A stretch of DNA of 64,000 nt from Ceratodon purpureus (taxonomy: Eukaryota; Streptophyta; Bryopsida; Pseudoditrichales; Ditrichaceae): contig CM026421.1 of the NCBI GenBank assembly GCA_014871385.1, positions 9,783,519 through 9,847,518 on the forward strand. Reading direction: 5' to 3'. Shown piece after piece: positions 13,451-48,316 of the stretch; positions within the stretch are counted from its first letter, which is position 1; every line of letters starts with the position of its first letter. Under the pieces are notes generated by a model. That model searched no databases, had not been told where the DNA came from, and saw only the letters and a program-made list of their open reading frames with translations. Both the position numbers and the translations under genes were made by a program.

Positions 13451-13482
<32 letters not shown>

Positions 13483-14536: not shown

Positions 14537-14544
14537 TCACCATG

Positions 14545-15989: not shown

Positions 15990-16106
15990 ACATTTGTAGG
16001 TGGTAGCCTAGAAATTGGCTAGGAATGTGTGCAAATTATTGAGGTACCGTGTTGCTTAGCGGAGTGGCGCCTCTTTGGCAGGTTCAACGCCCTTTTGTAG
16101 AGGTTT

Positions 16107-16600: not shown

Positions 16601-16724
16601 CGAGGAACCCTTCCCCCACATAGTACTCTCTGTGGGAATCGGCAGGCCCCCCCCTCCTGGGTCTAAGAGAGTTCCGAGACACACTTTTTTTTGGAAGACC
16701 ACCCACCCTCCTTCCCTACCCCCC

Positions 16725-18170: not shown

Positions 18171-18179
18171 TCCCGGCTC

Positions 18180-24600: not shown

Positions 24601-25700
24601 TCTCGTCCTGCCCCTCCCCTCCTTGCCTGTGCCCAGCAGCCACGATCGCCGTCTCTTCTACGGCCGCCTTCTGCGTCTCCTCCACAGCTGTCCCCTGCGT
24701 CTCCTCCACAGCCGTCTCCTGCGCCTCCTCCTCTCCTTCTTCCTGCAACAATGTGTCGCAACCTAAGTAGTCAGCTGAGTTGAACCCAAACCCTAAAACC
24801 CTGGATACATACAGTGGAACTGGACGCTCTGACGATGCCCTAATACCCTTTCCCGCCCTTACTTCAAGGAGTACTATCTTACCTGCTCTCGCTGGACAGC
24901 GGACTCCGCAATTCTAACCTTCTTAGACTTCTTGTGCTTTTCTGGACGCTCCTCCCTACTTGGCCGCTTCTTACTTTTCCTCTCGCTTTCTGATGACCTC
25001 TCATCTCCTGACCTCTTCTTTGTACCCTTCTTCTCACTTGCCGGTGACTTCTCAGTCCCGGACGACCTCTCCTCCCCATGGCCCTTCTTAGACCTACCCT
25101 TCTTCAACTTCCCTCCATACTTAGGGTTAAACATGGCGACAAACTATGTAGACCGACCCGCACCCTACAAACCCTAATTATGGCACCCTAAACCGAACCC
25201 TCACTGCACTACACTCACACACACAAAAACCGCAACGCAGTGTAAGCCAGGCACAGCAAGGCTGCGAGCTAAGAACACCACGAGGGGGCACAGAGAGACT
25301 GAGCATGGAGCTTCTCCCCCTTCTTATACCTGGCCTCAAGAGCAAGGGCGCACAAACTAATGATGTCTACAATTAACACACGTACCTCTAAGCACTCAGG
25401 TATGGTGAGGGGAATTGATTGCTGGAGCGGCGTCACACACTGCGATGGCGATGTCTCACACAACCCGCCCCCCTTTGCTACTCGAGGTACTGCTATGACT
25501 GGAAGTTTTGCGAAGTCCTTACTCAATGCCTTCACGGTCCCGCCAAACCCCTCAACACGTCGCCTCCGTTCCTCAGCCTGTCTCATCCTCGAAGCTGTCA
25601 GCTGCCTCGAGTTTGAAAACAGCTTGTCTCTCCCCTTCCTCTTTCTCTTTCTCTCTCTCACAGGAGTGGCGACCACTTCAGTTGAATCATCGACATGCAT
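18678..25700 (-). CDS. ParB-like plus DNA-methylase-like fusion protein (element A copy), ~9 exons
   Basis: Exons placed by GT/AG and phase: 25386-25700 (possible first exon, start MHVDDSTEV), 24883-25143, 23760-24742, 23467-23656, ~23183-23356, 20693-21141, 19357-20606, 19014-19263 and 18678-18906. A start at the ATG at 25134 is the alternative. The N-terminus is basic and charged. A ParB/sulfiredoxin-like block follows (PLCRMVSMPEVRPV...IYDGNHRYTAWKRYI, near 23900-24180). The C-terminus has beta-class methylase order: a degenerate motif IV (DLVVAQVPDNSPVP, ~19905), then motif I (VVDLTAGTGG, across the 19357/19263 splice) and a downstream GRHIVAIEEDE. The ParB-then-N6/N4-methylase order is known from phage and bacterial proteins. 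The substrate is unknown, and catalysis is doubtful because DPPY is absent. The ~23183-23356 exon acceptor is weak and out of step with better AG sites. Element B carries a paralogue with matching intron phases. Confidence 0.7.
19074..19126 (-). other. Acidic Asp/Glu stretch of the methylase-like protein
   Basis: Exon 19014-19263 encodes a run of about ten Asp and Glu residues immediately after the methylase-like fold, built on a GAC/GAT triplet repeat. Element B ends instead with a Ser/Glu-rich acidic tail, so an acidic tail is shared in kind but not in sequence. Confidence 0.7.
21478..23100. repeat. 151-bp palindromic minisatellite in the methylase-like gene intron (A)
   Basis: It fills most of the intron between exons 20693-21141 and ~23183-23356. 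At least six near-identical 151-bp units run from about 21948 to 22900, with degenerate units on both sides. Each unit holds a ~100-bp hairpin centred on CTCGGCACCGAG with arms built of CCCGACCGCGCCCATGAGGC, plus a ~50-bp hairpin of GGCCTTAT..GGGCCC type. The short 111-codon ORFs repeated every 151 bp are shadows. Confidence 0.93.
21751..21779. promoter_or_regulatory. TATAAAT centred in a perfect 11-bp-arm palindrome
   Basis: ATAAAGAACCC and GGGTTCTTTAT are perfect inverted arms around TATAAAT. It lies in the intron array rather than before a recognised gene. It matches the TATA-in-palindrome layout at 14411 and 60198 and may be a relic promoter. Confidence 0.45.
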
Positions 25701-26218
25701 CTGTGACACTATCCTGCTCTCTCGCCACACTAAACATCCCGGAGAATGCCACTCATTGCTTTAATATATCTCTCATCAGGATGAGTACTGTTATTTTTGA
25801 CGCTGCTAACTGTTTTGGCGCCCTTCCATATAAAGATTTCCTTAACTTAAAATTCCCTAGAATTGGCGGCTCAGATCCCTCCCCTTTTTCCCATGTCAGG
25901 GAATTTACTCTGACACGGTGTACCAGCCCTAATTATATTCAGTGGCAATCAAGAGACGGCTGGTCCTTATTATAGAGCCTTCTAGTGGCTGGTGATTTGT
26001 CGCATGATCGTCCTTTCAAGTAAACATAGGGGGCCCCTAAACCCAGTCATCATCCCCTTTTAGTCCGTCAGGTGTTCATCCTCTCTTCAACATTCGTCTC
26101 TGTTATGACAAGTTGAGATTAGCAAATACAAACGTATAAATGCAGTGGAAAATGCTGCAACAATCCTCTCAATTCTGCGCTTCGTCGATTGTGTCGCTCT
26201 TTCCGATCTGCCTACGCC
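25701..26218. promoter_or_regulatory. Divergent intergenic region between methylase-like and transposase genes (A)
   Basis: The two genes start back to back here. A sequence TTTAATATATCTCTC near 25760 could supply a minus-strand TATA-like element. I do not identify a clear plus-strand TATA. Element B has the same divergent layout (41972-42677). Confidence 0.4.
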
Positions 26219-29200
26219 ATGGCGCTACCTGTCCCGGCTCAGTTCCAAGGTTCCGTTTTTCTTTACGCACATGGCGTTGGAATTCCGCTTACGTTTCGCG
26301 TAGATGATGATGGGTACGCTCTTGTGTCATGTCAGCGTCTTAGTCTTAGGTTCCAGTATCAAGAGGACTCCATTAGCGTTGAGGAGGAGATCTGTGATGA
26401 GCTCACTGGAGAGATCACACATACACTAGGCCAGGTCTCTTTTGTGGACGAGAGGGATTGTAAGATGTGGAGGCTCACGCCTGGTAGGTTTAGAGTCTAC
26501 GGTCTCACGGATTCCCAGATGGCTGCGTCCACCGAGATCCTGACCCCCAGACGGTCCTCTACTTGCACCATCCAGACACCAGGAGCGGTGGACGTGAAGT
26601 TGAAGACCGACTCTGGCTCAACGACGCCTCTCCTTGCCAAAGTAAAAGTTGAGCCGGGATTAGATACCCCGGTTATCAATCTCTCCTCTGACGATGACGG
26701 GAGCCCGCGGACTCGAAAGTCAGCCGGAGATTTACCCGCCAGAGAACCTGTCCGTCCCGAGGCGGCTGTGGACACTCGCGCTTCGGATCTCATGGCAATG
26801 CCCCCTTCTTTGGACGAGTCCGTCAGTATTGTATCGCTGTTGAAGAAGCTTACTGCGCGGCCGGGTAAGAAGAACCTCCTGAAGAAGTTAGACTACGACT
26901 CCATCCGACATGAGAGAGTGGAGTATCTGCCGGCGGAGTTCAACGGCGACGTCATCTTTGAACTGCCACCTGTGGGATCCTCTGCCTCACGATCAGCCGC
27001 CAAGTCCATGCAGGGCATGGATAAGAGGTACGATGGGCACGTGTGGACGAAGACGATCACCACCAACATCTCCAACAATATGGGCCTCTCTTTCCGGTCG
27101 TCTTCATGTGCGGGCCATTTGCGGTGCGAGAACAAGGACTGCGGGTACCTTGAGCGCGACCATCGCATCTTCGACGTGAATGAGACCGAATTCGACGGAT
27201 GCACATTGCAGGCGTTTGTTGTGGGTGAAGAGGCTCCGAAGGAATCCACTTTGGTCTGCAAGGTATGTAAGGAACCTCCCGTATGCGTTGCCACTTGTAG
27301 AGCAAGGATATTTTATGTTTCGGCCAAGGGCAATAGGACACGGGCGTGCATCCACGTAGGATCCCACACCCACCCTGTCAAGGTGGGAGACTACCGTGAC
27401 ATTAAGGTCGAGATAAGTAGTTTGATAGAAAATCAGATCGAGAACACGCCCAAGGCTACGAAGAGCGCCGTTGTACTAGAGGCCAGCAAGGACCTGATTG
27501 GTAGTTTTTTATTACGATCGGAGGATGATCCACCGAAGACGCTCACCGTTCAAGAGCTTTACCCGGTGCTCGATAGGTGCAAGGATATGGCGTCGCCTAA
27601 CATTCGGAACAAGGTCGTTACTTTTAGGTACCTCAGACGTTTCGGGGTGATGGACAGCATAACGAAGCTGCGGGGACTCAGCACATGGGATTTCGTACAG
27701 AACAACATGTTCCCTGGCCAAGGGTCAGAATTTGACAAGGTCTACGTGTTCAAAATGTCCGAGATTGGGCCCGCGAGTGGTGTCGATCTTGTGAAGAGAA
27801 TGCAGCCGACGGGGGATCTGGAGCTTTCGTGGATGATGTTTGACCACGTCAAGCGCGTGCGAAATTGGACAACCATGGCATGCCACGTGTATGACTCCAC
27901 GTACTGCCGGGTCATGACGATCGCCTGCTGCGACATGCAATCTGAAGACGCCGAAGCCCAGATGGTGTTCTGGAAGAACCTCAACGCAGTCATGAAGAGA
28001 CACGGCGTGGAGAAGCCGAACTTCAAGGGATTCATGGCGGACAGCGCCCAGGCTAATTGGAATGCGGTCCGGGTGGTATACGGCAATGGCAACAAGGAAG
28101 ATCAAATGGAGGACCGGGAGAGGACCTGTCAATTTCATTGGACCCAGTCGATGGTGAATCATACCGAGAAATACGTCGCCGAAGAGTTGTGGGATCAACA
28201 CAAAAAGATGTGTCAGCAATACAGGAAGGCAAGATCAATGGCGGAGGCCGATGCTCTTTATCACGGGATAAGGGCTTGGTGGGCATCTGCGGGGGCAGTG
28301 TCCGAATCTGCCTTATCGAAACTTGACTTATGGCTCTCATTCTGGCATTATCGATATCGCCAATGGGGTGGGTTCATGACCGAGGTAACCACGCCACCCA
28401 CTGTTGTTTTCTCTTTCCCCGTACATGCTCATCGTAGTGACTCATTAATCGTTCATCCGTTGTTGGATCTCAGAAATTCTCGGAGGCGGAACTCGCGGAG
28501 ATGCCGTCCTGCAACCTCGCGGAGACGGTCCACAACAAGTGGCTTCAAGCATCCGGCAATAATGGCAGTGATCTGTACGTCGCCACCGTCGACGACTTTA
28601 TCCGTGCTTTTCTACAGGTTGTGAATTACTACCAGTACCTAAAGGGCGACGTGGGGGGTACTGGCCCGAGCAAGAAGGAGCTGAGGCTACGATCCGCAGA
28701 ACGTAGGGCGAAGAAAACGGGCGATCCAAAGGTTTTGGAGGACCCCATGCTGGACATGCCTGGCGCCGATGAGTTCTGTACGCGTGTCCCACATCTGCCA
28801 GGGGAGGAGGTGTTTGGTTCGCGGAAACGCAAGCCCGACTTGCCTCTTGGCGCTGAGGAAGAGTCGCATAGGCCAGATAAGGTAAACTTCTCGCATCCTC
28901 GAGTCAGTACCAGACCTGTCAGAGCTTGCGTGGCTCCCATGCCGGTCATCGTCGAGGAAGGCGACCGCGAGGTTGAAGCTGCTCATCATCCATCGCCACA
29001 GATGGATTCCGTCATCGCTTCACCCTTCAGCGAAGGAGGCGTGCGTCACGTCTCGGCTGTGGAGGAGACCAGAGTGAACGTGAAGCAGTGGCACATTGCT
29101 CGACTGCCAAAGACTTCCGCAAAGTGCTGTTGGGCGCAGAGGGCCGTCACCAATAAGAAATGCACAGAGAGGATTGTCAGGGGTGCTAAGCCCACCCCTG

Positions 29201-29976
29201 CCCCGACCTATAGCGGTGTATGGCACAGCAGAAGGAGGAACCTCGACATAACCGAGGACTTCTTTTTCTGCCCCGACGACATTGAGAGGTGCGTGAAGGG
29301 GACAAGGCGCAAATGGGTGAACTGGTACGATTTATCGAGAAAGGAAGGGTTTCCACCCATCCCAACAGTATGGCCTGTGAAACTTGGGACGAACCTGAAA
29401 GACTGTGAGATTCTTGCCTTGGAGGAGGCAGGGTTTCAGCTCCCACAGAAGAAACCAGTCTCGCCTAGGAGGCTCTTCACCTCCGACCCCCCTCCGCGAA
29501 ACCTAGACTCGGTTCCGGTGCCTGCAGAGGCTGACCGGTACCCTGGAAAGAGAGACGGGAAGATTGTCAAGCGGACTGCGACTCGTCCTAATCCGCAGCA
29601 GAGGCTGTCCATGGCCTCCTCCGACTCCCTCAAAGCACGACTGCGGTCTATCACCATGATTCCTCATCCCGGCCACGGCTGCATCATCGCGCTAGACTCC
29701 GGTGCTCCTCCCAATGTGACGAAATATCAGATCACCATCAGCTCCCTCCCCGGCTGCACATGCCCAGCATTCAAGAAAACAATGACGAAGTTCCGTGGGA
29801 GGGTTCAATTTACATACTGCAAGCATATGTATTACGTCCTCTTAAAGGTATGCCTGCGTGACCCGGATGTGGAACTTTTCATCCATGCACCGACCTTTAG
29901 CTTCAACGAAGTGAAGTTACTCCTCGAGAGTGGAATCTTGACACACCCCTTGGCGGAGCCCTACGAGACAGTCTAG
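26219..29976 (+). CDS. MULE-type transposase with SWIM finger (element A), 2 exons
   Basis: Exons 26219-28384 and 28474-29976 join in phase 0 (GAG|GTAACC ... CTCAG|AAA) to 1222 residues. Start chosen at GCCATGG (26219). Domain order: an N-terminal region shared with copy B (FRVDDDG...SLRF...EDSISVEEE); a KVEPG SUMO-type site and VINLSSDDD; a zinc-binding region with LRCENKDCGY, CKVCKEPPVC, CVATC and ACIHVGSHTHP, resembling WRKY-GCM1/FLYWCH modules of MULE transposases; a DDE-like core with HVYDSTYCRV, GFMADSAQANWNAV and CQFHWTQ; and in exon 2 a SWIM finger CTCPAF...YCKHMYY. It is predicted to cut and move the element by binding its termini. No frameshift or stop is seen. It lies divergent to the methylase-like gene. 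Confidence 0.85.
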
Positions 29977-30197
29977 AATTTGCCCTTTCTAATTTAGACC
30001 ATTACGACGTCGCAGTGGTACACTGCTTTTGTTTTTAATCGAGTCTGACTATGACTCAGTAATACATGATTTGATTTGCCATTAATGTAAAAAAAAAGTG
30101 ACACCTGGCCGAGTAATTGTCGTCGCACATCTTGTCCACCATTCTGTTTCCACAAATAATTACTTTATTACCATGCACTTTCTGAAAGAATATTACA

Positions 30198-30641
30198 TCA
30201 CATGAATCGGATGCGGCTTGGCCGTCCTTTTGATATTTCTACATAGCTACTTTTAGTTTCCATCGGACGGACGACGCATTCATCCAGACGTGGACCTGAC
30301 GAAGAACCTCGACCAGGCCGAGGAATTTTAATGACTGGACTGGACCCCACACGTCCACAGATTGCGGATCTCGAATAAGTCCCCGGAGGAATTCTGCCAA
30401 CCCTGGAATAAGCATGGCTTGGAAAGGACTTGGACTCAACCTCCTTAGTGGGCGATTTGTCGAGCGCCCCCGTAACAGTGCATGGCACCACATCAAGCCC
30501 ACGGCTATGTCCACCTTCTACCGGTTTAGGAGGCGATGGTCGTGGCTTCAGCAACAACTCGTCACCCTCATCTTCAAGAAAAGGTTCAAATGGCCCACCC
30601 TCATCACCTAGGGATACAACCCCAAAACCGACTTCCTCCAT
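30198..30641 (-). CDS. Small accessory protein with HAYSxVGxIP block and C-terminal RIRF (element A)
   Basis: A 147-residue frame begins MEEVGFGVVSLGDEGGPFEP and ends ...PSRIRFM. I chose this ATG over an upstream in-frame one because copy B (46701-47153) starts MEDVRDIVVSLADDVCPFQP. The conserved parts are the start, the block HAYSRVGRIPPGTYSRS and the C-terminal R-I-R-F; the rest is disordered-looking and diverged. R[VI]xF fits the PP1 docking consensus. It lies convergent to the transposase gene, ~220 bp after its stop and ~390 bp before the right terminus. No known family is recognised. Confidence 0.7.
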   Translation of the reverse strand: MEEVGFGVVSLGDEGGPFEPFLEDEGDELLLKPRPSPPKPVEGGHSRGLDVVPCTVTGALDKSPTKEVESKSFPSHAYSRVGRIPPGTYSRSAICGRVGSSPVIKIPRPGRGSSSGPRLDECVVRPMETKSSYVEISKGRPSRIRFM

Positions 30642-30929
30642 GGCGAAAACGGTATGCACCCCACTCCAAACCCTGAACATTCCACCAGCTAACAAACGAG
30701 AGTGAGAGAGCAAAGGCTCCAGAGTCATCCATTTATTCCAGTGAAATCACAAAAGACCCCGTCAATCACGCCTTGGCGCACAATTTCGAGACCAGTACTT
30801 GGTGGGCAGACCCAAAAAACCCTTTAACAGAACCCGGAAAGTATCCCACATTCAAGGAATATTCCTTGGAATATTCGAAAAGATTCTCTTTTCATCATCT
30901 TTTATTCTATTTTTAGTAAAAAAAATTCC

Positions 30930-31027
30930 ATTTTTAGAATCTGCTCTCCATTTTCCGCTCTAAGAGCAGAAAATCTCTGCTCTCCGCTCTCCGCTCTCCG
31001 CTCACCGCTCACATACAAGCTTCCCTC
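30930..31027 (-). repeat. Right terminal repeat of element A with GAGCGGA array
   Basis: On the minus strand the end reads GAGGGAAGCTTGTATGTG, then tandem GAGCGGA/GAGCGGT units and AGAGCAGATT. It is inverted relative to the left end at 13434 and nearly identical to the right end of element B (48147). Confidence 0.8.
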
Positions 31028-33158: not shown

Positions 33159-33520
33159 TCAGTCCTTCGCAGTAGACTTGGCTCGGACAACACTACACCC
33201 AGTATCGACGGATGGATGCACGGATCCAAACGACGAATACGTGGACTGCGGGCTTGCGTTCCCTCCGCACCACTGATCTTGGCCAGAGCACCGACTTCCA
33301 GCACCCTCCGAGATGTCGTAAGCTTCGTCAACAAGGCGGAGCCACCCTGCAGTTGACATGGTTTGCGTTGACACTTCCCCTGTGTGGCTGAAGTGAACGC
33401 TGCCAACACTCCCGGACTCCTCGGACTCCTCGGACTCCTCGAACGTCAGTGGGAAGGCGATGCCGGAAGCGTCAGAGATCTCCAACAACTCAATGCTGTG
33501 AGCAATACTCCAAAACCACC
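33159..33520 (-). pseudogene. 3' part of a reading frame split by element B; unknown protein
   Basis: On the minus strand a frame runs from the element B boundary to a stop at 33159. It is rich in Ser/Glu (FEESEESEES) with GWLRLVDEAYD further on. Read across the target duplication, the same frame continues without a stop into the DNA on the far side of element B (48157-48316, upstream part containing RPFGRETPANLEELRPWYR). I do not recognise the family. The continuity shows the site was open reading frame before insertion. Confidence 0.55.
33512..33520. repeat. Left target-site duplication of element B
   Basis: AAAACCACC directly precedes the left terminus and recurs directly after the right terminus (48148-48156). 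With the neighbouring C it could be 10 bp. A 9-10 bp duplication is typical of Mutator-like elements. Confidence 0.88.
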
Positions 33521-33640
33521 GGGGGAAAGTTCGTACGTGAGCGGAGAGCGTAGAGCGGAGAGCGGTGAGCGCAGAATGGAGAGCACAGAATTGACAATTA
33601 GGAAAATTTTCAAAAGCAAAGTAGACCCTATAACCGTGGA
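33521..33640 (+). repeat. Left terminal region of element B: inverted repeat, GAGCGGA array and CCGTGG motif
   Basis: The terminal repeat is followed by GAGCGGAGAGCGTAGAGCGG-type units. At 33622-33639 comes TAGACCCTATAACCGTGG. The same 18-mer is at 63095-63112, and 16 bases of it recur inverted at 47941-47956. Confidence 0.85.
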
Positions 33641-33751
33641 AAATTACTAAATTAAGGCTTAATTTTGACACTTTTTTTAGAAAAAGAGTATATTACCGTG
33701 GAAATTAGGGTTATCTCTGGTAAGAATTTATTACGTTTGTTCTCTAAGATA

Positions 33752-33784
33752 CAAATTAGGGCTGATGTCATGATGACGTCATGC
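33752..33784 (+). promoter_or_regulatory. Subterminal TGACGTCA block of element B
   Basis: AAATTAGGGCTGATGTCATG leads into TGACGTCA at 33774-33781, matching the block at 13671 in element A in content and distance from the end. It is a candidate bZIP/TGA site or accessory binding site. Confidence 0.5.
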
Positions 33785-36700
33785 ATACATTCCTTTAGAT
33801 TTGTCATGGGTTTAGGGAAGTTACAATGATGAGGAACATGCCTATGGAAATGTGGGATTTTGAATGAGTAAAATATATATAACAGCGCAATATTATTTTT
33901 GAGCCTTTCTTTTGTAACATTTCATTCTTCATATTATATTTAGAGCATTATAGTTGTGACATTTCATCCTTTACAAACACGGAGACAAAATGGAAATGAG
34001 AATCATAAAAAGTTTAGGTTTAGGGTAGTTGAGTAGACGAAGGATTACCCAAAGAACTCCAATTAAATCAAATCAAAGCAAATGAAAACAACAATAGACC
34101 GAAGCCTCCTTCAAACTCACAACATGCTACAGTCGCTACTTTCACTCTCAGAACTAGATGACTCTGAATCTCCTTCTACCGCCTCGTCATCGACGAATAG
34201 AAGGGCCCTGGGATCAAAAGTAGTTGGCCGACTAGGAACATATGTAAGGGCTCCAGATTGAAACGCCTGTGCTAAGCCCTCTGCGTAGTCCGGAAGTATG
34301 AAAGGCTGAATCGGGCTGGAATGAAGACGCCACGATGGAGTGGACACTGATGTTGGCCCACGTGGCGGTGATGCTGAAACTACTCTGCAATAGAGAACCG
34401 ACTGTGCTTACATCGAGTACGTAGAGCTGCAAAGAGAAGTAATGCTTGGATAATTTGAACGTAGAATAGAAGACTTACACCACTTGTCAGGTCTTGCTCT
34501 CTTTGGAGGCGCTTCGCCTGTTGCTGCCGGCCTTGGATGTTTAGGAGGGCCCATGGCGGATGGTTTGAGAAGGGCGTTGAATATGGCTTCGTCCTCCTCA
34601 AAAGCGAGAATGTGACGACCAACAGCCTGGGCGGCCTTGATGGAGGCCCCTGAAACTCGGAGAGAAACAAAGAAATGAGAAACTCTGGAAAAAATGAGAG
34701 GAAAAATGAAGCAAAGATATGTAAGAAGAGTTACCTGTCCCTGCATTCCAATCAAGGACTATGTCGCCTGGCTTGGACAGCTCCTCAATGATGTTCTGCA
34801 TCATCTCAGGGGATTTCTCCCTTGGGCCTCTCTACGGCACCTCCCCATTCATGAGCTGCGAGTCCACATCGGTGAAGTTGAAAATGGCATCACTCTCGGT
34901 AATGTTGAGGAGCCCATGTATCAGGTCTTCTTTCTTTGTCTGGAAGGAGAAAGTACTGCCACTACGAACGTAGACGCGAATCCAGAACCGCATAGTCTGC
35001 AGTCAAGCAAAACTAGTGAGTAAAATTAAGCGGAAGGGTAAGCAGTAAGTAAAGAGAAGGGTATGTTTTGGGAAATTACCAAGTTCTCGGGGTTCGTAGG
35101 AGAAGTGAGGCCGAGGACATTGACGCCCCACCAGTCCTTGAAGAGCACGTAGTCACCACCAGCAGCTTCTTCGTCGATATCCTTAGCCAGCTTCTGATCA
35201 GTGTTGTAGATGAGGCAGATGGCACCATCTTTCTGCAGGAAATCATCAGCAAAACGGAAGATATCGTACACATAATCCTTGTAGCGAGAGTTCCAAGGCG
35301 GAATACTCGTGGGGGGAACGGAAACGGATGGGACGGGAAGATTCTCAGGGATGTCAGCAATGATCGAGTCGACTCCCAGATGGTCCTCTTGTTTGCACCG
35401 GTCCCCAACTTCGTTTTCGCGGCCTGCTCCAAACTTGAGGAAACAAGAAACGAGAGTTAGTAACTACATAGTGAGTAGAGGTGGCAGAATCCATTAAATG
35501 TCAAAATATAGGAACAAACCTTGCGAATGAAGTCTTGAGTCTTGATCCAATCCGGGTCGCCACCTTTTCTCTCCTGTCTCCTATTTCGCCGTAAAATGGA
35601 ATCCACAGATGAGTTGAAGACGGAAACATGTGTGGAAATCGAAGCTCCAGCGGAAGAAGTTGGTTGAGGATATAGTTTGGCCTTCCTCTGCTCAAGGAGA
35701 CCTCTGGTGATCTCGGAAGCACTGATCGAGGAAGGAGCCGGCGAAGAAGCTGGAGAAGGGTTAGTAACGACAATTCCCGGAGAGGGCTCTGGTGCCTTCT
35801 CAGTTGGCGCGGAAGACTCCGCACCAGTTTGCTGTGATGCCTCTGACCGAGAACGCAGAGAATTCAGTCGCCTTCCTCTCCCTCTCTTCGGTGGTGGAGC
35901 AGAAGACTGATCTTGCTCTCCTTCACGGTCTCCTACATCGTCCACGGAGTCCTCCACCACAACCTCACCCCCATCGTGTAGAGTCTTGACGTCTACCTCT
36001 GAGTCAATCGTGAAACCACGAGAGCAGTCAAGATACCAGCATCCTTCAAGCAAGTGAGGATTTTTGTACCTTTTCAGCTGTTTCGGAGAGTACATACACT
36101 GGTCCGAGGTTCTCGATGTCCAAGCAGTAAAGAATGCAGGCAGTTGCTGAACTTTAAGTGCCCCCTTCAGAACAAGCTCTCGCTTAAAGTACCTAAGGAT
36201 ACCAATATGAAGAAGGGTTGTATGAGAAAGATATATAGAGCTCAATATGGAAATTGAATTTGACAAAGGAATGTATCGTACCGGTAAGTAACCCGCTTGA
36301 CGACCTCCGCGGTTCCAGGGAATTTAGCGAAGTTGGATTTCTTGTCGAAAACCTTCTCAGCATTCTTTCCAACGAATGTAGGGAAGGCCTTGTCCCATAA
36401 TAGAATACGTGAACTCTCGACAAAGTCGCCCGGCTCTTGTACATCAGGAAATGCCTTCCAATTGATAACGAGGTTCTCCGCCTTGCACATGCCCTCGACT
36501 TCGTTGATGACGGCTTCCTCCAACTGACATACAGAAAATTTATCAGTAGTAGTAAGAAAGAAATGAGGGATAGTAGAAAGGTTCAAGTCATGAATGAAGA
36601 ACGCTTCATGAATGAAACTCACCCTGGCCCAAAACGAAGCTTTGTTCAACCATGGGTCGAAATCCGTGTCCTTGAATTCAGCTGGCGGAAATCTGTAAGA

Positions 36701-38396
36701 CTTTCGGGAAGTCGGAGATGAGTTCCACCACCTCAACCAACGAGCCTTGTACTTGGCCTCAACGGCCGCTGGAACAACCTTCTGAAGCTTATCTAGTGAC
36801 ATCTCAGGTTTAGAGTTCTCACTGTAATGCCGATTAATCTGCAACAAGGGAAGATTTAGGAAATATGAATAAAAATATAAAGTAGTGAAACGAAATACTG
36901 AACTCAACCACGGTAAGGGTATCACCTCATAGAGGAAGTCGTCACCGTTCTTGGGATTTGCAATTGTCAAGTACTTGGTGAAGTCCTTCTTCTTAATGGA
37001 TTCGACCATGTTGTTTGAAGCCGCAGTCATGGCATCCCAAACACCTGCTGCGGTTTGGTCTTCAATGGCTGTTTTCTCCTTGTAGATTCTTGCAGCTTCG
37101 TCTGAGGCCGCCACGACCTCTCTCTGGAAAACATAGTTATCCCCCTTTTTAGTACAGAGACGAACAGAAATCAGTTGTCGAATGGAAGTGTGAGAAAGGA
37201 TGGATGAAGTGCTTACACGATAAAGAAACTTGATGAAGACTTTGGTTGGCAAGGTAAACCAGGATGGAGTATGTGGTTTATGATTCAAACATATTTGATA
37301 CTCCTCTGCTGTGAGCAGATCCTTGAATTCCTCCAATTTCATCACACCGAAGGAGCGAATTCGGAAAAGTTTAGCCGGAAGATTGCTCTTTACATGATCA
37401 TTTTCTGTAGACCTGCACATATAGACGGCATTTAGTAAAATGCATAAACATCAAAACGTCTGGCCAAAATAGAGGGGGTTCTTATTCTCACCAATTGATG
37501 TCGTGCATGGCATGAAGAAGGTTTCCCACATGTCCGCGTGGGTCGAGAACAATGCAGTGCACAGAGATGTGCCACGCAGGATCATCGCTGTGATGGTTGT
37601 TGATATGTCTGTACCAGGCAGCAAGGCGATGGTTACCTTCCCAGACATAGAACATCTTCCCAGAGAACTCCTTCCAATCCGAGTCCGCCAAGAGCTCATC
37701 CTCGAAAGCATCATTCGCTTTTTGCCAACAAGTGCTCCACTCAGCCTTGGTCTCCTCAGTGACATCGGCTGTCTTCTCTTCGTGGTTATACATGGAAATG
37801 TACATGACTCTGTCTCCATCTCTGTAGCCTTTGACAAACTCTCGCTCCAAATGTTGAACTCCCATTTCTCCCACAGGTCGCACTTTAGCCATAGAGAGCA
37901 TTCTGCAAAGGGGAACTAGGATACGTGACTTTGACGTTGGATGAATTCGGAGCTTGTTGATGACGCCATTGGAGTCTTGCTTGTGTTGTACCCGATGTTC
38001 CAATTCACTGTCAACTACATTCGTCAATTCACTAGGACAAGAGGGCGCTGGCAACGTATCCTGTGTCTGGGTTACCTGCCATAAGTCATACATTATGATG
38101 ATCAAAGGAAATCAAACAATTGTGAAGATAGGTAGAACAATAGCTTCCTGTACTGATACATCTCGTTTGAATAACAAATCATAGGCCACAGTAGGAAGTA
38201 CTACAGGGGCCACTATATACGTGGAGCACGGCTATAGTACTCCCTAGCCTGTCTACAGTTCCAATGACGGCGCCTCCTCCAAAAACGCCTGGTCTGCTGG
38301 ACAGGGCAAGGCAGTATCGCCAGTAGGGCGAAGACAACATGGGCTGGCCTCCTCACTCTAATAGGCGAGGAAGGAGAAGGTGGAGACATCGGCGGG

Positions 38397-38480
38397 GTAC
38401 CAAGTCGTGGAGAAGTAGGCATGTAGCCCGGGGATGTAGGCTCATAGACAGGAGACGTAGGCATGTACTGAGGAGAGTGG
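38397..38480 (-). other. RNA polymerase II CTD-like heptads in the methylase-like gene (B)
   Basis: Exon 38357-38623 encodes three consecutive heptads YMPTSPV, YEPTSPG and YMPTSPR, then SPPSPSSP. They match the Y-x-P-T-S-P-x pattern of the RPB1 C-terminal domain except at position 2. The exon ends in phase at a GTGAGG donor. I see no equivalent in copy A. Confidence 0.65.
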
Positions 38481-38877
38481 ACCTCGAGAGGTCCACTACC
38501 TAAGTCTCTAGGGGTTCCTAAATCACACCTACATAAATGAGGCTGATCAAATGAATCCGAGAGGTCGGAAACATTGATCAGTGTGATTGGCGAACTGATG
38601 GACAAGGGTGCATCTGAGAATACCTACAAGCATAGAGACGAAGACAATGTCAATTTAACATTTGAGTTTTCAAAACTACTTAAGAAAGTTTTAATAAAAA
38701 TTTAATGTTCAATACAAAAGCAGATAAGATTAAGATTACCTCAGTTTCTGCAGGTGTTGGACCATCACCTTCAGTCGCAGTGATTTGATCCGTGAACTCC
38801 TACAACACAGAGAGAAAACAAATTATAAGAAATCATAAAACAAGAACAAAGAAAAGGTTTAAATCAAAACCAATAAT

Positions 38878-40760
38878 CTCCCCATCTACAGCCATGACTG
38901 CCCTCGTGGCCATGCCCTCCCTTGCACCCACTGCCCATTGATTCCCCAACACTCCCCTCCCCTTCCACCCCCCTTTCGGCACCGAATCCCCATCTACAGC
39001 CATGATTGCCCTCGCGGCCTTGCCCTCCCTTGCACCCACTGCCCATTGATTCCCCAACACTCCCCTCCCCTTCCACCCCCCTTTCGGCACCGAATCCCCA
39101 TCTACAGCCATGACTGCCCTCGTGGCCATGCCCTCCCTTGCACCCACTGCCCATTGATTCCCCAACACTCCCCTCTCCCCCCTCCCCCCTTTCGGCACCG
39201 AATCCCCATCTACAGCCATGATTGCCCTCGCGGCCTTGCCCTCCCTTGCACCCACTGCCCATTGATTCCCCAACACTCCCTTCCCCTTCCACCCTCCTTT
39301 CGGCACCGAATCCCCATCTACAGCCATGACTGCCCACGTGGCCATGCCCTCCCTTGCACCCAGTGCCCATTGATTCCCCAACACTCCCCTCCCCTTCCAC
39401 CCCCCTTTCCGCACCGAATCCCCATCTACAGCCATGACTGCCCTCGTGGCCATGCCCTCCCTTGCACCCACTGCCCATTGATTCCCCAACACTCCCCTCC
39501 CCTTCCAACCCCCTTTCGGCACCGAATCCCCATCTACAGCCATGACTGCCCTCGTGGCCATGCCCTCCCTTGCACCCACTGCCCATTGATTCCCCAACAC
39601 TCCCCTCCCCTTCCAACCCCCTTTCGGCACCGAATCCCCATCTACAGCCATGACTGCCCTCGTGGCCATGCCCTCCCTTGCACCCACTGCCCATTGATTC
39701 CCCAACACTCCCCTCTCCCCCCCTCCCCCCTTTTGGCACCGAATCCCCATCTACAGCCATGACTACCCTCGCGGCCTTGCCCTCCCTTGCACCCACTGCC
39801 CTTTGATTCCCCAACACTCCCCTCCCCTTCCACCCCCCTTTCGGCACCGAATCCCCATCTACAGCCATGACTGCCCTCGTGGCCATGCCCTCCCTTGCAC
39901 CCACTGCCCATTGATTCCCCAACACTCCCTTCTCCCCCCTCCCCCCTTTCGGCACCGAATCCCATCTACAGCCATGACTGCCCTCGTGGCCATGCCCTCC
40001 CTTGCACCCACTGCCATTGATTCCCCAACACTCCCCTCTCCCCCCTCCCCCCTTTCGGCACCGAATCCCCATCTACAGCCATGACTGCCCTCGCGGCCTT
40101 GCCCTCCCTTGCACCCACTGTCCATTGATTCCCCAACACTCCCCTCCCCTTCCACCCCCCTTTCGGCACCGAATCCCCATCTATAGCCATGATTGCCTTC
40201 GCGGCCTTGCCCTCCCTTGCACCCACTGCCCATTGATTCCCCAACACTCCCCTCCCCTTCCACCCCCCTTTCGGCACCGAATCCCCATCTACAGCCATGA
40301 TTGCCCTCGCGGCCTTGCCCTCCCTTGCACCCAGTGCCCATTGATTCCCCAACACTCCCCTCCCCTTCCACCCCCCTTTCGGCACCGAATCCCCATCTAC
40401 AGCCATGACTGCCCACGTGGCCATGCCCTCCCTTGCACCCACTGCCCATTGATTCCCCAACACTCCCCTCCCCTTCCACTCCCCTTTCGGCACCGAATCC
40501 CCATCTACAGCCATGATTGCCCTCGCGGCCTTGCCCTCCCTTGCACCCAGTGCCCATTGATTCCCCAACACTCCCCTCCCCTTCCACCCCCCTTTCGGCA
40601 CCGAATCCCCATCTACAGCCATGACTGCCCACGTGGCCATGCCCTCCCTTGCACCCACTGCCCATTGATTCCCCAACACTCCCCTCTCCCCCCTCCCCCC
40701 TTTCGGCACCGAATCCCCATCTACAGCCATGACTGCCCTCGCGGCCTTGCCGTGCTGCAT
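38878..40760. repeat. 108-bp minisatellite in the methylase-like gene intron (B)
   Basis: Roughly seventeen 108-bp units fill the intron between exons 40842-41330 (GAG|GTAAGA donor at 40841) and 38740-38799. Each unit contains TTTCGGCACCGAATCCCC, CATCTACAGCCATGA and CCTTGCACCCACTGCCCA. Because 108 is a multiple of three, all frames stay open for hundreds of codons on both strands (36-residue repeats); these ORFs are artefacts if the splice call is right. Units differ by a few substitutions and small indels. Confidence 0.92.
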
Positions 40761-41971
40761 TGCAATCTCCGAATCCCGAGTCCAATACCTTGCTACATTC
40801 AACGAACCCACAACAACAAATGCTTCGATCGGATCTCTTACCTCCTCCGTCGCTGCATCTCCATCCGTGTGGACACCCGCAGCGTCCATCCCCTCCACAC
40901 CACGGTCTTCTCCACTAGCAGCCATTCTCGCCTCTGAAGCCTCCACTTGCGATGCCGCGACCTTGAGTGTGGAAGTGCCCTTACTCTTGACCCTCCTTCG
41001 ACTCCCATGACCTCTCCCTCTCCCTGTAACACCTAACTCTCTCTCTCGATCCGCGACCTCACCCTCTTCACACTCGATGTCGACTTCAGGCCCCGCCATC
41101 CTATCTTGCGAATGATCTTTGTCTATACTCCTTTCCGATGGACTTCCCGGGTCCCCTCGTCCTGCCTGTCTTGCAGCTATTGCTCCGCCTCCTTCGCCCG
41201 CCTCCATGATTTTGCGTCTCGCTCTCCGAGCCTCTTTTATCAAAATCTCGGTATCTGAATCCTCGCCCGCATCTACTTCTGGCGTCTTTTCCTCTGCAAC
41301 GTCTTCCTCAATTCTAAACCAATCAACAATCTGCGCATATATTTGAGCAATGACCAGTATTACTACTCGGCTCTCCTATTTTAAACAGTCATTCAGTTCA
41401 TGACGCATCAAGTATTCATTGAAGTAAAAAATAAACCCACAACCAAGACAATACGTAAAACTTAATAAAACTCTACTAATGTACATACTTTACATGAAGC
41501 ATATTTAAATGTATCAATTATGAAACTTACCACATCCTTGTTAGACTGGTCGCCCGACTGTGTATCCGTCCCTCTTGTCGAACACTCCTTGAATCCGAAA
41601 GAAGGTTGTGGTGTCTCCAAAGTCGGACTGCAATTGAACCCTAATTCTTCTGTCATCTCTACCTGTTTTTCCCCTCTACTTCTTACCTCATGCTCCTGAT
41701 GCTCAACTATGTTGTCCACTAAAACCTCTTCTTTTGCCTCTACAATGGACTCTAGAATTAGTTTACGAATGCTACAAAATTTAATTGCCACAGGCAGCCC
41801 AGCGCCTCTATCTTTTAGAGGTGCACTCAAGTGGTTGCCTGTCGACTTCGCCTTTCTACGTGATTCTCTCCTCTTCCTCGCTCTCCTATTCGTAAAATCT
41901 GTACCACCTGGTTTTCTTCTAGGTCTAGGAGTGACATAAGTGGAGGGAGCTGACCCTCCACTCTCCTTCAT

Positions 41972-42677
41972 GTGTCTAACTAACAAGTGAACTCTCCTCA
42001 CAATATAGCTCTCCTCCTTACTTCCCTCTAATTTATATATCCCAAACCTTCAACCCCCCTGACTCAGCCCTAAATACTTACCTTATTCTAAACCTACTTG
42101 ATTTAATGAAAACTATAAATAAATTGTATTTTGAATTAAAGCTGATGAGATCAATCTATTTTTGAAGAGAATAAACCAAGCCCACAAAATATTAAAAGAT
42201 TTTAATTAAGCACAGGAATACTTGTATTAAATATGGATGCACGTGACGGCTCACTCTAATCTCACTCACAGTCTGTCTGTCCAGAAATCTATTATGAAAA
42301 TTGAGGAACCCTAACACTGCATAAAATATAGAATTTGAATAAATCATATGCTTGCATTAGTCCTATACATATATAACTAATGCATGAATATGATTAATTC
42401 AAATTCTATATATTTATTGTTTTCAATGCAGAAGGAAAAGACGGCTCTTTTTAATCCAATCGCACTCCATAAAAAATAGAATCTGCTCCACGATTTAAAC
42501 ACTTAAAGCAATATTCTGAAAATCTTACCACATATTTATGGGCCTGCAAAAAGCACATTCTAATCAGTTAGCGCCGTCTCTCTTGAATCATACATTCGTT
42601 ACGTAACAGACAGAATTATTCCCCAACTGTTGACATGGACATTCCACCTTGAATAAAAAGATCAAGAGCGATGCATC
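41972..42677. promoter_or_regulatory. Divergent intergenic region between methylase-like and transposase genes (B)
   Basis: This AT-rich ~700-bp region separates the two divergent starts. TATA-like words (TATATATT, TATATATC) are present but I cannot assign one with confidence. No gene lies inside. Confidence 0.4.
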
Positions 42678-45600
42678 ATGCCTCTCACTTTGCTCTCGCA
42701 ATACCGCTTGGCTGGTACACTCACTCTTCTTCCTTCTTCCTCTAGTATATCTGAGTTGCCTGCAAATATGGGGATGGTCTGTCTGTACGCCCAAGGCATG
42801 GGCATCCCCCTTAGGTTTCGCGTAGATGACGATGGTCTAGCTACGGTGTCCTCTCTTCGCCTCAGTCTCAGATTCCATTTCCGTGAAGATTCCATCAGTA
42901 TAGAGGAGGAGATCTTTGATGACGTTACTGCCGAGGTTACCCACACCCTCGGGCAACCTTCAGTGAGAGATGAGAACAACATGTTGCAGTGGAGACTCCT
43001 CCCTGGATCCTATAGAGTCTATGGTCTTACTGATTCTCTTATGGCTGCATCCACTGAGATCCTCACCCCCCGTCGCTCTTCTACTTGCACAATTCAGACT
43101 CCCTTACCTCGTGATGTCAAAGTCAAAGTCGAGCCTGGTACCGAGACTTCAGATGTAGAGAAACCTCCTCCGACCGTCATTTCTCTCTCCTCTGACGACG
43201 AAGTCAGTCCCGTGAAGTCGGTGCCCAAGGTCCACGCTGATGCTCCTCCTTCCAATGTCTCTCCTTCATTGTCCCAGGTCACAGTTAGCATTGTTCCGCT
43301 CCTTAAAGAGATTGCTAAGACGCGTGGGTCCAAAAACATTTTGAAGAAGATAGACTATTCCACTATTACACACGAGAGAGTAGAGTACTTGCCTGCGAAG
43401 TTTGATGGTCCGGTTCTTTTTGAGTTGCCTCCAGCTGTTGCAGGATCCTCTAAGCTCGCCGCCAAGTCAATGCAGGGAATGGACAAACGATACGACGGAC
43501 ACTTGTGGACCAAGACCATCACAACAAACATCAAAAACGACTTCGGACTCTCTTTTCGAAGTTCCAACTGCGTCGGATGGTTGCGTTGCACGAACGAGGA
43601 GTGTGACTTCCTGAAGCGTGTTCCCAAAATCTTCGAGGTTAACGAGACTGAGTTCGAAGGCTGTACCCTGCAAGCTTTTCTCATGGACCAGCCTCCTCCA
43701 TCTGACTCCACGCTAGTGTGCAAGGTATGTAAAGAACCTCCATCATGTGTAGCTACATGCGAGGCTAAGATTTATTACGTTGTGGGCAAACCGAATCAGA
43801 CTAGAGCTTGTATTCACATAGGAACACATGATCATCCAGTGAAAGTCGGAGACTACAGAGACTCTAAAGCAGAGATTAGTAGCTTAATAGAAGAGCAGGT
43901 AGAGATGAACAACAAAGCAACAAAGAGCGCCGTTGTCCTGGAGGCGAGCAAACTCCTCATCGGGAGCTACCTTCTACAGCCTGAGGATGCACCTCCGAGG
44001 AAGCTGACGATGGAGGAGCTGGTTCCTGTTCTGGATCATTGCAAAGACATGGCGTCACCAAACATCCGCAACAAAGTCGCCACCTTCAAGAAATTCAATA
44101 GGTACGGAATCATGGACGGTATCACCAAGCTCCGTGGTAACAGTCTCTGGGCGTATGTCCAGGAGAATAGGTTTCCTGGTCAGGGATCTATGCGTGACAA
44201 AGTCTTCCTCTTCAAGATGTCGGAGGTCGGGCCGGGAAGTGGTGTCGACTTGGTCAGCCGAATGCAAGCTGGTGGCGACTTGGAGAACGCATGGATCATG
44301 TTCGACCATGTCAAACGCGTCAAAGACTGGTCGACGATGGCGTGCCATGTGTACGACGCCACCTACTGCCGCGTCATGACAATCGCCACTTGCGACATGC
44401 AGTCCGAGGACACGGACGCCCAGCTCGTCTTCTGGAAAAACCTGAACCTGGTCATGGAGATCAATGGCGTTGCAGCGCCGAACTTCAAGGGGTTCATGGC
44501 GGATAACGCACAGGCGAATTGGAATGCAGTGCGAATCCTTTACGGCAATGGCAACAAAGAGGACCCAATAGAGGACCGGGAGAGGTCGTGCTTGTTCCAC
44601 TGGACTCAGAACATGGTGGCGTATACGCAGAAGCACTTCCCCGAAGAACTCTGGGAACAGCACAAGAAGATGTGCACTCAGTACAAGAATGCGACCAGCA
44701 TGGCAGAGGCGGAAACTTTGTACCACGCGTTGCGAGCATGGTGGGCATCCACCGGGGTCGTTGGCGAGAGCGGGCTCATCAAACTCGATCAGTGGCTGTC
44801 ATTCTCACACCACCGCTTCCGCCAGTGGGGGGGATTCATGACCGAGGTATGATCTCTGCACTCTGTTTTGATGTTTTTGATACTGCTTTCCTAGCCCTAA
44901 CCTACAAAAGTCTAATCCGTGAATCTAACGGCACCTACTGTCAAATCTGCAGAAATTCACGAAAGAAGAACTCACAGAGATGCCCACCTGTAACCTCGCC
45001 GAAACAGTTCACAACAAGTGGCTCCAAGCTTCAGGAAACAACGGAAACGACCTCTACGTTGCTACCGTGGACGATTTCGTTCGGGCATTTCTACAGGTGG
45101 TCAACTACTACCAGTTCCTCAAAGGTGACGTCGGCGGAACAGGACCATCCAAGAAGGAACTCAGGCTCCGGATGGCTGAACGCAACGCGAAGAAATGGGG
45201 AAATCCTACACTGCTCGACAAGCCCATGCTCGATATGCCAGGCGCGGATGAGTTCTGCACCCGTCAGCCTATCATGCCTGGAGCGGAAGTCTTCGGTTCA
45301 CAGAAGCGAAAAGCCGACGTCCTTATCGGAGCTGACGAGGAGTCTCATCGCCCGGACAAGACAAACTTCTCACGCCCAAGAGGCCCAAGACGTGCCGTCA
45401 GGGCTCGCCCTATGCAGATGCCCGTCATTGTGGAAGACGACTCCGAACACGACACCGAGGTACAATGTACGCAACCTCCTGCCCAGGAAGTTGATTCCCC
45501 TTTACCTTCACCAGTGAACAAGGGCGGCATTCGCCATGTCAACGCCGTTGAAGAAACTAAGGTGGACGTGAAGGAGTGGCACATTTCGAGACTTCACAAA

Positions 45601-46446
45601 CTTTCTGCGAAGTGCTGCTGGGCCCAAAGAGCTGAAACGAAGAAGAAGTGCACTGAGAGAATCGTTAGAGGGCCCCATTCCACAACTGCACCGACCTACA
45701 CTGGGCTCTGGACTAACTATCGCAGGAACCTAGTCGAGAAGACAGAGTTCTTCTTCTGCTCCGACGATATTGAGCGCTGCGTGAAAGGCTCTAAGCGCAA
45801 GTGGGTAGCACACTACTCAAAGGACCAGGAATTCCCCTCCATTCCTGAGGTCTGGCCAGTGAAACTAGGTACTAACCTAAAACTAACTGAGATTCTAGCC
45901 CTCGAAGCAGCGGGCTTTCAACTTCCGCCGAAGAAACCGGTCTCCCCAAGACGCCTGTTCTCTTCTGCCCCGCCCCCTGCAAATCTCAGCTCAGTGCCAG
46001 TCCCTGCAGACGCTGACCGCTACCCAGGCAAGAGAGACGGCAAGATGGTGAAGCGCACTGCCACTCGTCCCAATCAAGCGCAGCGACTCTCCATGGGCTC
46101 CTCCGAGTCTCTTAAAGCGCGCCTCCGTTCCGTCACCATGATACCTGAGCCGGGCCACGGTTGCATCATTGGGCTGGATTCGGGCGTCGCTCCACACATC
46201 ACGCGGTACCAGCTTACCATCAGTTCTTACCCTGGTTGCACTTGCCCAGCATTCAAGAAGACGATGACTACGTTCCGTGGCAAGACTCAGTTCACGTATT
46301 GTAAGCACCTATACTACATAGTCTTGAAGGTCTGCAACCGTCATCCCGAAGCCGAGCTTTTCATCCATGCGCCTACCTTCAGCTTCAACGAGGTCAAGCT
46401 ACTCTTAGAGAGTGGAATCTTGCGTCACCCCTTGGCGAAGAAGTAG
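42678..46446 (+). CDS. MULE-type transposase with SWIM finger (element B), 2 exons
   Basis: Exons 42678-44846 and 44953-46446 join in phase 0 to 1220 residues, with the intron at the same position as in copy A. First ATG 42678 is used; a later start at MGMVCLYAQG is possible. Domain order is as in copy A: FRVDDDG...EDSISIEEE; VKVEPG then VISLSSDDE; zinc-binding LRCTNEECDF, CKVCKEPPSC, CVATC and ACIHIGTHDHP; DDE-like HVYDATYCRV, GFMADNAQANWNAV and CLFHWTQ; SWIM finger CTCPAF...YCKHLYY; and C-terminal HAPTFSFNEVKLLLESG. The frame is intact. With the clean target duplication this is the best candidate for an active copy. DDE residue assignment is by pattern only. Confidence 0.87.
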
Positions 46447-46700
46447 GTAGCCCTCCTACTTTAGAACTGCCATTTCCACATTGGCCATTTGTCACGTAGT
46501 GAATGATTTTAGTAATATACCATGTACTAAGTCAGCTATTCAGAAGCTGTATTGACTTTTTCATTATATTAAAGGCTTTGTCGTTCGCATTGATTGCACT
46601 CTATTTCAATACATTCTATCTTGAAGAAGTGTAATATATACCTCGTATCCCCTGACATGTACCATTTATTACGGCAAACATATACTTGTTATTAGATGTC

Positions 46701-47153
46701 CTAATCTTCGAACCTAACACGTTTAGGGTTGCCCACTACACTATCAGCAGGACTGCCACCCACTGATTGTACTACAGGACAAACTACATTCGCGTTCACT
46801 TTCGGTCCCACACTTGGCAAGTGTCCTTGGTATGAACGTTTCAGCAATGCCCCACCTCCCCGCCTCCGATTAACTGATTCCCTGGAATAGGTTCCCCTTG
46901 GGATCTTTCCAACCTTCGAGTATGCATGTGGTTGCAAAGGCACATCTGCGTCCTTCTCCAGCACTCTGATATCATCCGAATTTTCTGAACGTGGGGGGTC
47001 AGCTCTTACATCCGGTTGTACGTCAACATCCGTTGTCGAAGGACGCCCTTGGCTGTTGGCCATCACCTCTTCTTCGTCTTCCACCTCAACATATGGTTGA
47101 AATGGACAAACATCGTCAGCAAGTGAAACAACAATATCTCTGACGTCTTCCAT
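46701..47153 (-). CDS. Small accessory protein with HAYSxVGxIP block and C-terminal RVRF (element B)
   Basis: A 150-residue frame starts MEDVRDIVVSLADDVCPFQP and ends ...GNPKRVRFED. It shares with copy A (30198-30641) the acidic N-terminus, the block HAYSKVGKIPRGTYSRES and the C-terminal R-[VI]-R-F, in the same place and convergent orientation relative to the transposase. The K-R-V-R-F-E-D context, basic before and acidic after, is what functional PP1-docking RVxF motifs usually show. The remainder is low-complexity and diverged. Function is unknown. Confidence 0.7.
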   Translation of the reverse strand: MEDVRDIVVSLADDVCPFQPYVEVEDEEEVMANSQGRPSTTDVDVQPDVRADPPRSENSDDIRVLEKDADVPLQPHAYSKVGKIPRGTYSRESVNRRRGGGALLKRSYQGHLPSVGPKVNANVVCPVVQSVGGSPADSVVGNPKRVRFED

Positions 47154-47940
47154 AGCTGCTGTCCCGCACTACGGAAAAGAGCTTTACAAAACACCAACAC
47201 AAAAGAGGCAGAGACATTCTCTACTCTTATCTTAAATATCCCTGAAGAAGATGCTTGGCGCCCTTGAAAATCGGCTATTCATTCGTTTGAAAGTTGTCAT
47301 CCTCCTAAACCGAATGGAAAAAGATGAAGGTTTAGCAGAGGTCATTTAGCATTTAAATTTTTTTCTTAAAATTATAGAATGAAGAAAAAAAATTAAAAAA
47401 AAATTTAAAAAAAAAAAAAAAAAAAACATTTATATTAATTGAAATTAAAAAGATTAAAGAAAAGAATAGCAATATTTAATATGAAGGTTGAAAATAATAT
47501 AAAGGAGATCAACAAATTGAATGTGAAAATAAAATGATTGTGAAAATAAAATGAAGGAGAAAATTAAATGAAAGGAGGCTTTTGACCCCTCTAACAAGAT
47601 AGATAGAATAAAGAAAATTTTATAAAAAATACAAGACAAATATCAAAAAAAATTTTTAAAAAAAAAAAAAAGGAGAAAGGCATGTAGACTATGGTGGATG
47701 AATTCTAGCAATGTTAAGAAAATATTACGAAATTAAATGTTACTTGATCCCTGTTCAGAGGTTCAATACCAGTACATTTTAAGTAGTAATTTGCATATAA
47801 ATTTAAGGAGATAAGGGGAATTACTGTACGCCTGAACTAGTTAGAAGGAGCTGGAGCATAGTAATTGGTGCACGTTAAAAAATTAATCACCAAGAAAAGA
47901 GAATATCAACTACAAATTCAATGAAAATACTGTAATTAGT
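47154..47940. other. AT-rich subterminal region of element B
   Basis: Poly(A)-rich and A/T-rich DNA (for example A20 near 47410) without a supported gene lies between the small-protein gene and the right terminal motifs. Confidence 0.5.
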
Positions 47941-48147
47941 CCACGGTTATAGGGTCAATTAAATTACTAAAATTAGTATATTTCCAAAAATACACTAAAA
48001 ATATTCGAATCTTCTAATTTTATAATTTATTTTTAGTAAAAAAAGTGCTATTTTTAGGTTCTGTCCCCCATTCTGTGCTCTCCGCTCTCCAAATCTGCGC
48101 TCACCGCTCTCCGCTCTGCGCTCTCCGCTCACGTACAAGCTTCCCTC
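47941..48147 (-). repeat. Right terminal region of element B
   Basis: Minus-strand reading from 48147 gives GAGGGAAGCTTGTACGTG, GAGCGGA-type units, an A/T stretch and at 47956-47941 GACCCTATAACCGTGG. It is inverted relative to the left end at 33521. Confidence 0.85.
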
Positions 48148-48316
48148 AAAACCACCTCGCACCTGGCTGCAGAAGGCGTGGGATGTATTTGAAAGCTGGA
48201 ATGGCGGTGTTGCGAGAACGGGCGACCACCGCCCTATACCATGGCCGGAGCTCCTCGAGGTTAGCCGGTGTCTCCCGACCAAATGGTCGCTCCACATTGC
48301 TACCCCGCCTCCCCAT
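48148..48316 (-). pseudogene. 5' part of the reading frame split by element B, with right target duplication
   Basis: 48148-48156 is the right AAAACCACC duplication. The minus-strand frame 48316-48157 contains MGRRGSNVERPFGRETP and PRLLQPGAR. It reads in phase into the segment left of element B (33520-33159). Family unknown; the upstream limit is uncertain. Confidence 0.5.

Follow-up and report, generated by a model that had tools for sequence, protein, structure and literature searches.

Proteins that combine a ParB-like region with an amino-methyltransferase are already described from algal transposons. Sola1-1_Ec32 of Ectocarpus, a DNA transposon of 21.5 kb, encodes a 1104-aa accessory protein with ParB-like and N4-cytosine/N6-adenine (N4C/N6A) methyltransferase parts, and red and green algal transposon proteins with ParB and an amino-methyltransferase are also reported (PMC12477816; Bostrychia, Iyer 2011). 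In the VANDALs of Arabidopsis, which are multi-gene Mutator-like elements (MULEs), the protein VANC21 binds the motif YAGTATTAY, found in tandem repeats in the introns of VANC and VANB and upstream of VANA (PMC5735166). Turnover of the VANDAL repeats is rapid, and the motifs used by VANC6 are different (PMC5735166, PMC10398659). Fungal DNA transposons of several lineages carry TET/JBP, thought to counter silencing (PMC12730594). We analyzed a stretch of 64,000 nucleotides from Ceratodon purpureus (GenBank assembly GCA_014871385.1, contig CM026421.1, positions 9,783,519 to 9,847,518 of the forward strand), here called the window. It holds two MULE-type transposons, element A (13434..31027; 17.6 kb) and element B (33521..48147; 14.6 kb), each with genes for a transposase, a ParB-like/methylase-fold accessory protein and a small protein, and each with tandem arrays of the palindrome TCGGYRCCGA. 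From these sequences, we tentatively favour the reading that the accessory protein of this three-gene MULE binds the arrays as a self-recognition factor that marks or shields its own element, rather than acting as a methylase.

A gene trio common to two elements

The sequence-only reading of this DNA had proposed that A and B carry three homologous genes in a common order and orientation, which was borne out by tblastx and by spliced gene models. In both elements the ParB-like/methylase-fold gene lies on the minus strand, the transposase gene on the plus strand and the small-protein gene on the minus strand. Between the spliced models, the transposases are 71% identical over 1186 codons, the ParB-like/methylase-fold proteins 32% and the small proteins 31% over 148 columns. 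Synonymous sites are saturated, with proportions of synonymous differences (pS) of 0.783, 0.816 and 0.767, respectively, so the trio dates back to an old common ancestor and has been retained since. The corresponding nonsynonymous proportions (pN) are 0.184, 0.460 and 0.489; for the ParB-like/methylase-fold gene, both values exclude the last two exons of B. The accessory proteins evolve faster than the transposase. The ParB-like/methylase-fold gene is divergent from the transposase gene, with 1306 bp (A) and 1393 bp (B) between its modelled 5' end and the transposase start, both 5' ends being ends of open stretches and not proven starts.

The elements are bounded by terminal inverted repeats (TIRs) with arms of 50–52 nt and 92% complementarity. 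In A they lie at 13436..13485 (+), where the heptamer GAGCGGA is repeated, and at 30976..31025 (-); in B they lie at 33524..33575 (+) and 48094..48145 (-). The TIR core CGTAYGTGAGCGGAGAGCG, with at most three mismatches, occurs at exactly four sites in the 64 kb, which are both ends of A and both ends of B, inverted, and in none of 100 shuffles of the sequence. Element B is flanked by a target-site duplication (TSD) of 9 bp, AAAACCACC (33512..33520 and 48148..48156, both +), or of 10 bp when read as CAAAACCACC, within the 8–11 bp range given for MULEs (PMC6446971). No TSD was found at the ends of A, suggesting that its flanks changed after insertion or that A is a recombinant. A DUF7869 gene fragment (30964-32508; Pfam E=2e-38, profile positions 56-190 of 192) abuts the right end of A, the element that lacks a TSD; it gave no tblastx match in the left flank, its missing upstream part not having been properly sought.

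Flanks were compared by blastn using 10 kb to the left of A, 10 kb to the right of B and the intervening 2.5 kb, which is at once the right flank of A and the left flank of B. The comparison gave a single 18-bp match, between the left flank of A and the right flank of B, and homology otherwise stops at the element ends. Together with the saturated synonymous sites, this argues that the pair is not a segmental duplication, the explanation that had been named beforehand as opposing the proposal of a multi-gene lineage.

The transposase gene of A (26219..29976, +) was modelled in two exons (26219-28384 and 28474-29976; 1222 aa), as was that of B (42768..46446, +; exons 42768-44846 and 44953-46446; 1190 aa), with the one intron at the same codon position and the reading frame open in both. 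The top structural match of the protein model is the IS256-type transposase ISCth4 (PDB 6xgw, 6xgx and 6xg8), with an RNase H fold of the IS256/Mutator type. Unlike this bacterial group, the transposases of A and B have an extra N-terminal region as well as a putative GCM-like zinc region and a putative SWIM-like C-terminal part, and each is accompanied by two other genes. Residues D542 and D608 are invariant in all 22 sequences of an alignment comprising A, B and 20 of the 46 relatives, and are putatively catalytic; the model places D542 on the first strand of the RNase H fold. A candidate third acidic residue (NLAETVHN, exon 2) was seen only in A, B and P0001. The Pfam scan of the spliced A transposase (E<=10) gave no MULE or Transposase_mut match, and Transposase_mut was matched weakly in 2 of the 22 aligned sequences (best E=0.034). 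The motif CTCPAFKK...CKH is present in both elements; Pfam SWIM scored 13.4 bits in exon 2 of A, relative to a cut-off of 19.6, and gave no match for the B transposase at E<=1. A relative of the transposase (L001; 43%) was found on a contig assigned to a cyanobacterial metagenome-assembled genome, where it is probably eukaryotic contamination; L001 is 4.1 kb and holds no TCGGYRCCGA site.

Thus the structural match, the TIRs, the 9–10 bp TSD of B and the age of the trio agree with the proposed multi-gene MULE-type lineage. The sequence analysis supports the view that A and B represent a real, old and co-inherited module, as two members of a giant Mutator-type lineage. Two points correct the sequence-only reading: A lacks a TSD, and the methylase-like gene of B contains an in-frame stop.

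Palindromic arrays within A and B

All 35 TCGGYRCCGA sites of the window, 20 in A and 15 in B, are located in three arrays with differing repeat units. Array 1 of A (14558..14909) has units of about 34 bp (10.7 copies by Tandem Repeats Finder, TRF) and 10 sites. Array 2 of A (21485..23085) has 151-bp units; the portion delimited by TRF (21818-23085) has 8.4 copies and 8 sites, and two diverged leading copies add 2 sites, for a total of 10. The array of B (38879..40751) has 108-bp units (17.4 copies by TRF) with 15 exact sites and 2 with one mismatch. No site is present in 31.8 kb of flank or in the TIRs of either element, and shuffled sequences held a mean of 0.08 sites. One-mismatch forms number three in B, including the two within the array, and one in the flanks, where palindromes with TCGG arms and any centre occur twice, both as TCGGATCCGA. 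On the plus strand, the centre of the palindrome is CA in 25 cases, TA in 8, TG in 2 and CG in none. Two other tandem arrays of A are without the palindrome, namely a 33-bp CCTTAGGGCGAGGCCG array directly adjoining array 1 (14908-15074) and a 1.4-kb CCCTCT-type array with strong strand skew (16756-18158).

Eight 10-mers occur at least four times in both A and B. The first in rank is TCGGCACCGA, with 12 copies in A, 15 in B and none in the flanks, both strands included; the remaining seven represent poly-A, parts of the TIRs and words rich in C and T. A scan of all palindromes made of two 4-bp arms around a 2-bp spacer gave TCGG as the top arm in each element taken on its own (20 in A, 15 in B), and A/T arms lead in the flanks. 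The B unit has no 11-mer in common with array 1 of A or with the tested 151-bp unit, and random 108-bp units contained the TCGGYRCCGA class at a frequency of 5e-5. Conservation was measured in the registers of the repeat finder, the motif not being used to set them. In array 1, the core columns are 97% identical, as compared to 72% for the rest (6 units; 3 of 34 ten-column windows equally good), so that the core stands out in this array.

Array 2 of A lies inside a modelled intron of the ParB-like/methylase-fold gene (23182-21142), for which donor 23183 and acceptor 21141 were the sole in-frame pair in the windows searched. The array of B lies inside the inferred first intron of the corresponding gene (40841-38076), with the donor GAG/GTAAGA at 40842 and several possible acceptors near 38075. 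The B intron that apparently matches the array-bearing intron of A is only about 60 nt, suggesting that the arrays of A and B arose or moved independently. Large transposons commonly carry tandem repeats; a host factor, or the transposase at an enhancer or internal site, might instead bind the arrays, the accessory protein being unconnected with them. We consider this unlikely, given that the palindrome is absent from both TIRs and from the flank and that two arrays fall within introns, modelled or inferred, of the gene for the accessory protein.

The arrangement is similar to that of the VANDALs, where short motifs are also tandemly repeated in non-coding DNA, including accessory-gene introns, and where the repeats differ between related elements. 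VANC, compared here by description only, is not described as a methylase-fold protein in the available text of PMC5735166 and PMC10398659. The VANC motifs vary among families, and that text does not call them palindromic, whereas A and B have one palindrome in common.

The accessory protein and its proposed role

The ParB-like/methylase-fold gene of A (19010..24913, -) was modelled with six exons (24913-23760, 23656-23467, 23356-23183, 21141-20693, 20606-19357 and 19263-19010) and 1156 open codons, the start codon and some acceptors not being fixed. The gene of B (34450..41375, -; 3' end not fixed) includes a ParB-like exon at about 38075-37492 and an inferred first exon at 41375-40842. Regions corresponding to those of A are present in B, with two matching introns, a third that is likely to match by its position in the S-adenosylmethionine (SAM) motif, and extra introns. 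This matching was done by eye; for the last two junctions of B the script gave no clean join, and the first of the two was placed afterwards.

The methyltransferase-fold region of A (19058..20095, -) contains the SAM motif DLTAGTGDS, which is interrupted by the final intron of the model. As judged from sequence, the C-terminal half is by fold a beta-class DNA amino-methyltransferase. When a profile of A and B was searched against PDB sequences, the best five matches were DNA amino-methyltransferases (DpnA twice, CcrM and RsrI twice; best E=5.8e-4). Alignment by hhalign with one phage DNA methyltransferase gave a probability of 96% over 167 columns, this enzyme having been chosen from 60 records that matched the A sequence weakly by tblastn (for the chosen one, E about 2). 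The Pfam scan of the A protein (E<=10) gave only N6_N4_Mtase (E=7.3e-4; 20 bits, below the cut-off of 26.7) and Glyco_hydro_4C.

The catalytic motif IV of amino-methyltransferases has the consensus [DNS]PP[YFW], to which neither copy conforms. The stretch reads VDLILTDPPYA in the phage enzyme, VDLVVAQVPDN in A and VDSIIADIPEN in B, giving QVPD and DIPE; this placement was made by eye, because the N-terminus was misaligned by the aligner and the hhalign alignment began downstream of the stretch. Both copies conserve SAM motif I together with the GRHI.A.EEDE.IF that comes after it. The degeneration of DPPY in both copies, with the SAM-binding motif kept, suggests that the protein is probably a reader and not a writer, and we infer that it has lost catalysis. 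The sole relative found, P0047, also has QVPD; being 99% identical, it adds no independent evidence on motif IV. An active N6A/N4C methylase with an atypical motif IV, methylating its own element, would account for the beta-class fold, the intact SAM motif and the conserved GRHI.A.EEDE.IF, and would match the proposal published for similar proteins, including the Sola1 protein of Ectocarpus (PMC12477816); with QVPD or DIPE in place of DPPY, this seems improbable to us.

Sola1-1_Ec32 resembles A and B in being a large DNA transposon whose accessory gene and transposase are on opposite strands, and in the ParB-like and methyltransferase parts of its accessory protein. It differs in being a Sola1 element by name and not Mutator-type, the comparison being by description and not by sequence, and neither recognition arrays nor a degenerate DPPY are mentioned in the available text of PMC12477816. 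The fungal transposons are alike in that a family of DNA-modification enzymes occurs on several transposon lineages; TET/JBP is a dioxygenase and not a methylase fold, and the 11 lineages named in the available text of PMC12730594 do not include MULEs.

The ParB-like region was delimited by its motif, DGNHRYTA in A (23762..24250, -) and EGNHRLAA in B (37494..37952, -), and the two regions are 42% identical. This GNHR..A motif we take to resemble ParB. Thus, of the ParB/methylase fusion described in the sequence-only reading, the SAM-binding half stands by its match to beta-class enzymes and the catalytic motif does not, and the ParB label holds at the level of the motif, with no ParB fold or family match. 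The suggestion of self-recognition gains from the palindromic arrays shared by both elements, and the sequence-only interpretation as a whole is supported in part.

Under the self-recognition reading, a cut-and-paste transposase would act on the TIRs, and the ParB-like/methylase-fold protein would bind the palindrome TCGGYRCCGA, kept in tandem arrays partly in the introns of its own gene. From the arrays, it may mark or shield its own element against host silencing, as VANC does in VANDALs. A more specific version, which we regard as a minority possibility, is that a prokaryote-type ParB/methylase fusion was converted in this eukaryotic transposon lineage into a non-catalytic reader that uses parS-like palindromic arrays as nucleation sites and coats or marks the DNA of its own element, thereby escaping silencing, the core site being conserved across very diverged elements. 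As part of that version, and with the same reserve, the arrays and the protein could form a partition-style self-recognition device, convergent with VANC in layout and different in protein.

Several observations weigh against the self-recognition reading. It rests on two elements, and no third element was found at the DNA level in the one window. Random 108-bp units contained at least one of the 10-mers that the two A arrays share at a frequency of about 0.003, a look-elsewhere estimate that rises to 0.016 for 9-mers and 0.096 for 8-mers, and the two A arrays may have one origin; looser 10-mer tests gave 0.032 for sharing with the 151-bp unit and 0.086 for sharing with either A array. The core of array 2 is only slightly more conserved than the rest (100% and 96%; 8 units; 16 of 151 windows as good). 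In the B array the values are 99% and 97% (13 units; 53 of 108 windows as conserved), which is uninformative because the units are too alike. The intron holding the B array follows from splice signals only, and the methylase-like gene of B has one in-frame stop (34834-34832) and may be dead. The A sequence alone gave no significant match against PDB, CcrM (E=0.75) ranking below an unrelated protein (E=0.12), and a ParB fold is unsupported (model pLDDT 54, no useful fold match, no ParB family match). The small number of elements, the look-elsewhere estimate, the B array core and the stop in B would also fit a coincidence of unrelated satellite arrays, with the accessory genes as ordinary captured cargo. 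This we hold to be the least probable explanation, given that TCGG is the top palindrome arm in each element separately and that the three genes are retained as homologues beyond synonymous saturation. The statistical strength of the arrays together with the degenerate motif IV, from two elements, is moderate.

Neighbouring features and biological meaning

The small-protein gene adjoins the right end of each element and is transcribed inward. It encodes 147 aa with the C-terminus SRIRFM in A (30198..30641, -) and 150 aa with the C-terminus RVRFED in B (46701..47153, -), and the protein may be a co-inherited helper. The C-termini are RVxF-like (RIRFM in A, 30201-30218; RVRFED in B, 46704-46721), a motif that we take, as a lead only, to be of the phosphatase-1 docking type.

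To the right of B, two direct repeats (49750-51096 and 57791-59219) of about 1.3–1.4 kb are 90–94% identical and 8.0 kb apart. The DNA between them is AT-rich with no stop-to-stop open reading frame of 150 aa, and the whole looks like a coding-poor long terminal repeat element. A tRNA-Val (cac) was predicted by ARAGORN at 10868-10941 (-) and is absent from the Rfam list at the gathering threshold.

Among the papers listed in a literature search, with the red-algal and 2011 green-algal sources outside it, none dealt with such an accessory protein in a MULE or with palindromic arrays accompanying it. The class of accessory protein is already known from algal transposons, and the MULE setting, the degenerate catalytic motif and the shared arrays look new. 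If the self-recognition reading is true, TCGGYRCCGA would be a candidate target, defined at the sequence level, for the ParB-methylase proteins of algal transposons; the available text of PMC12477816 gives no targets for these. It would also represent a second kind of motif-array self-recognition among MULEs, and it raises the question of whether transposon 'methylases' write marks or merely read DNA.

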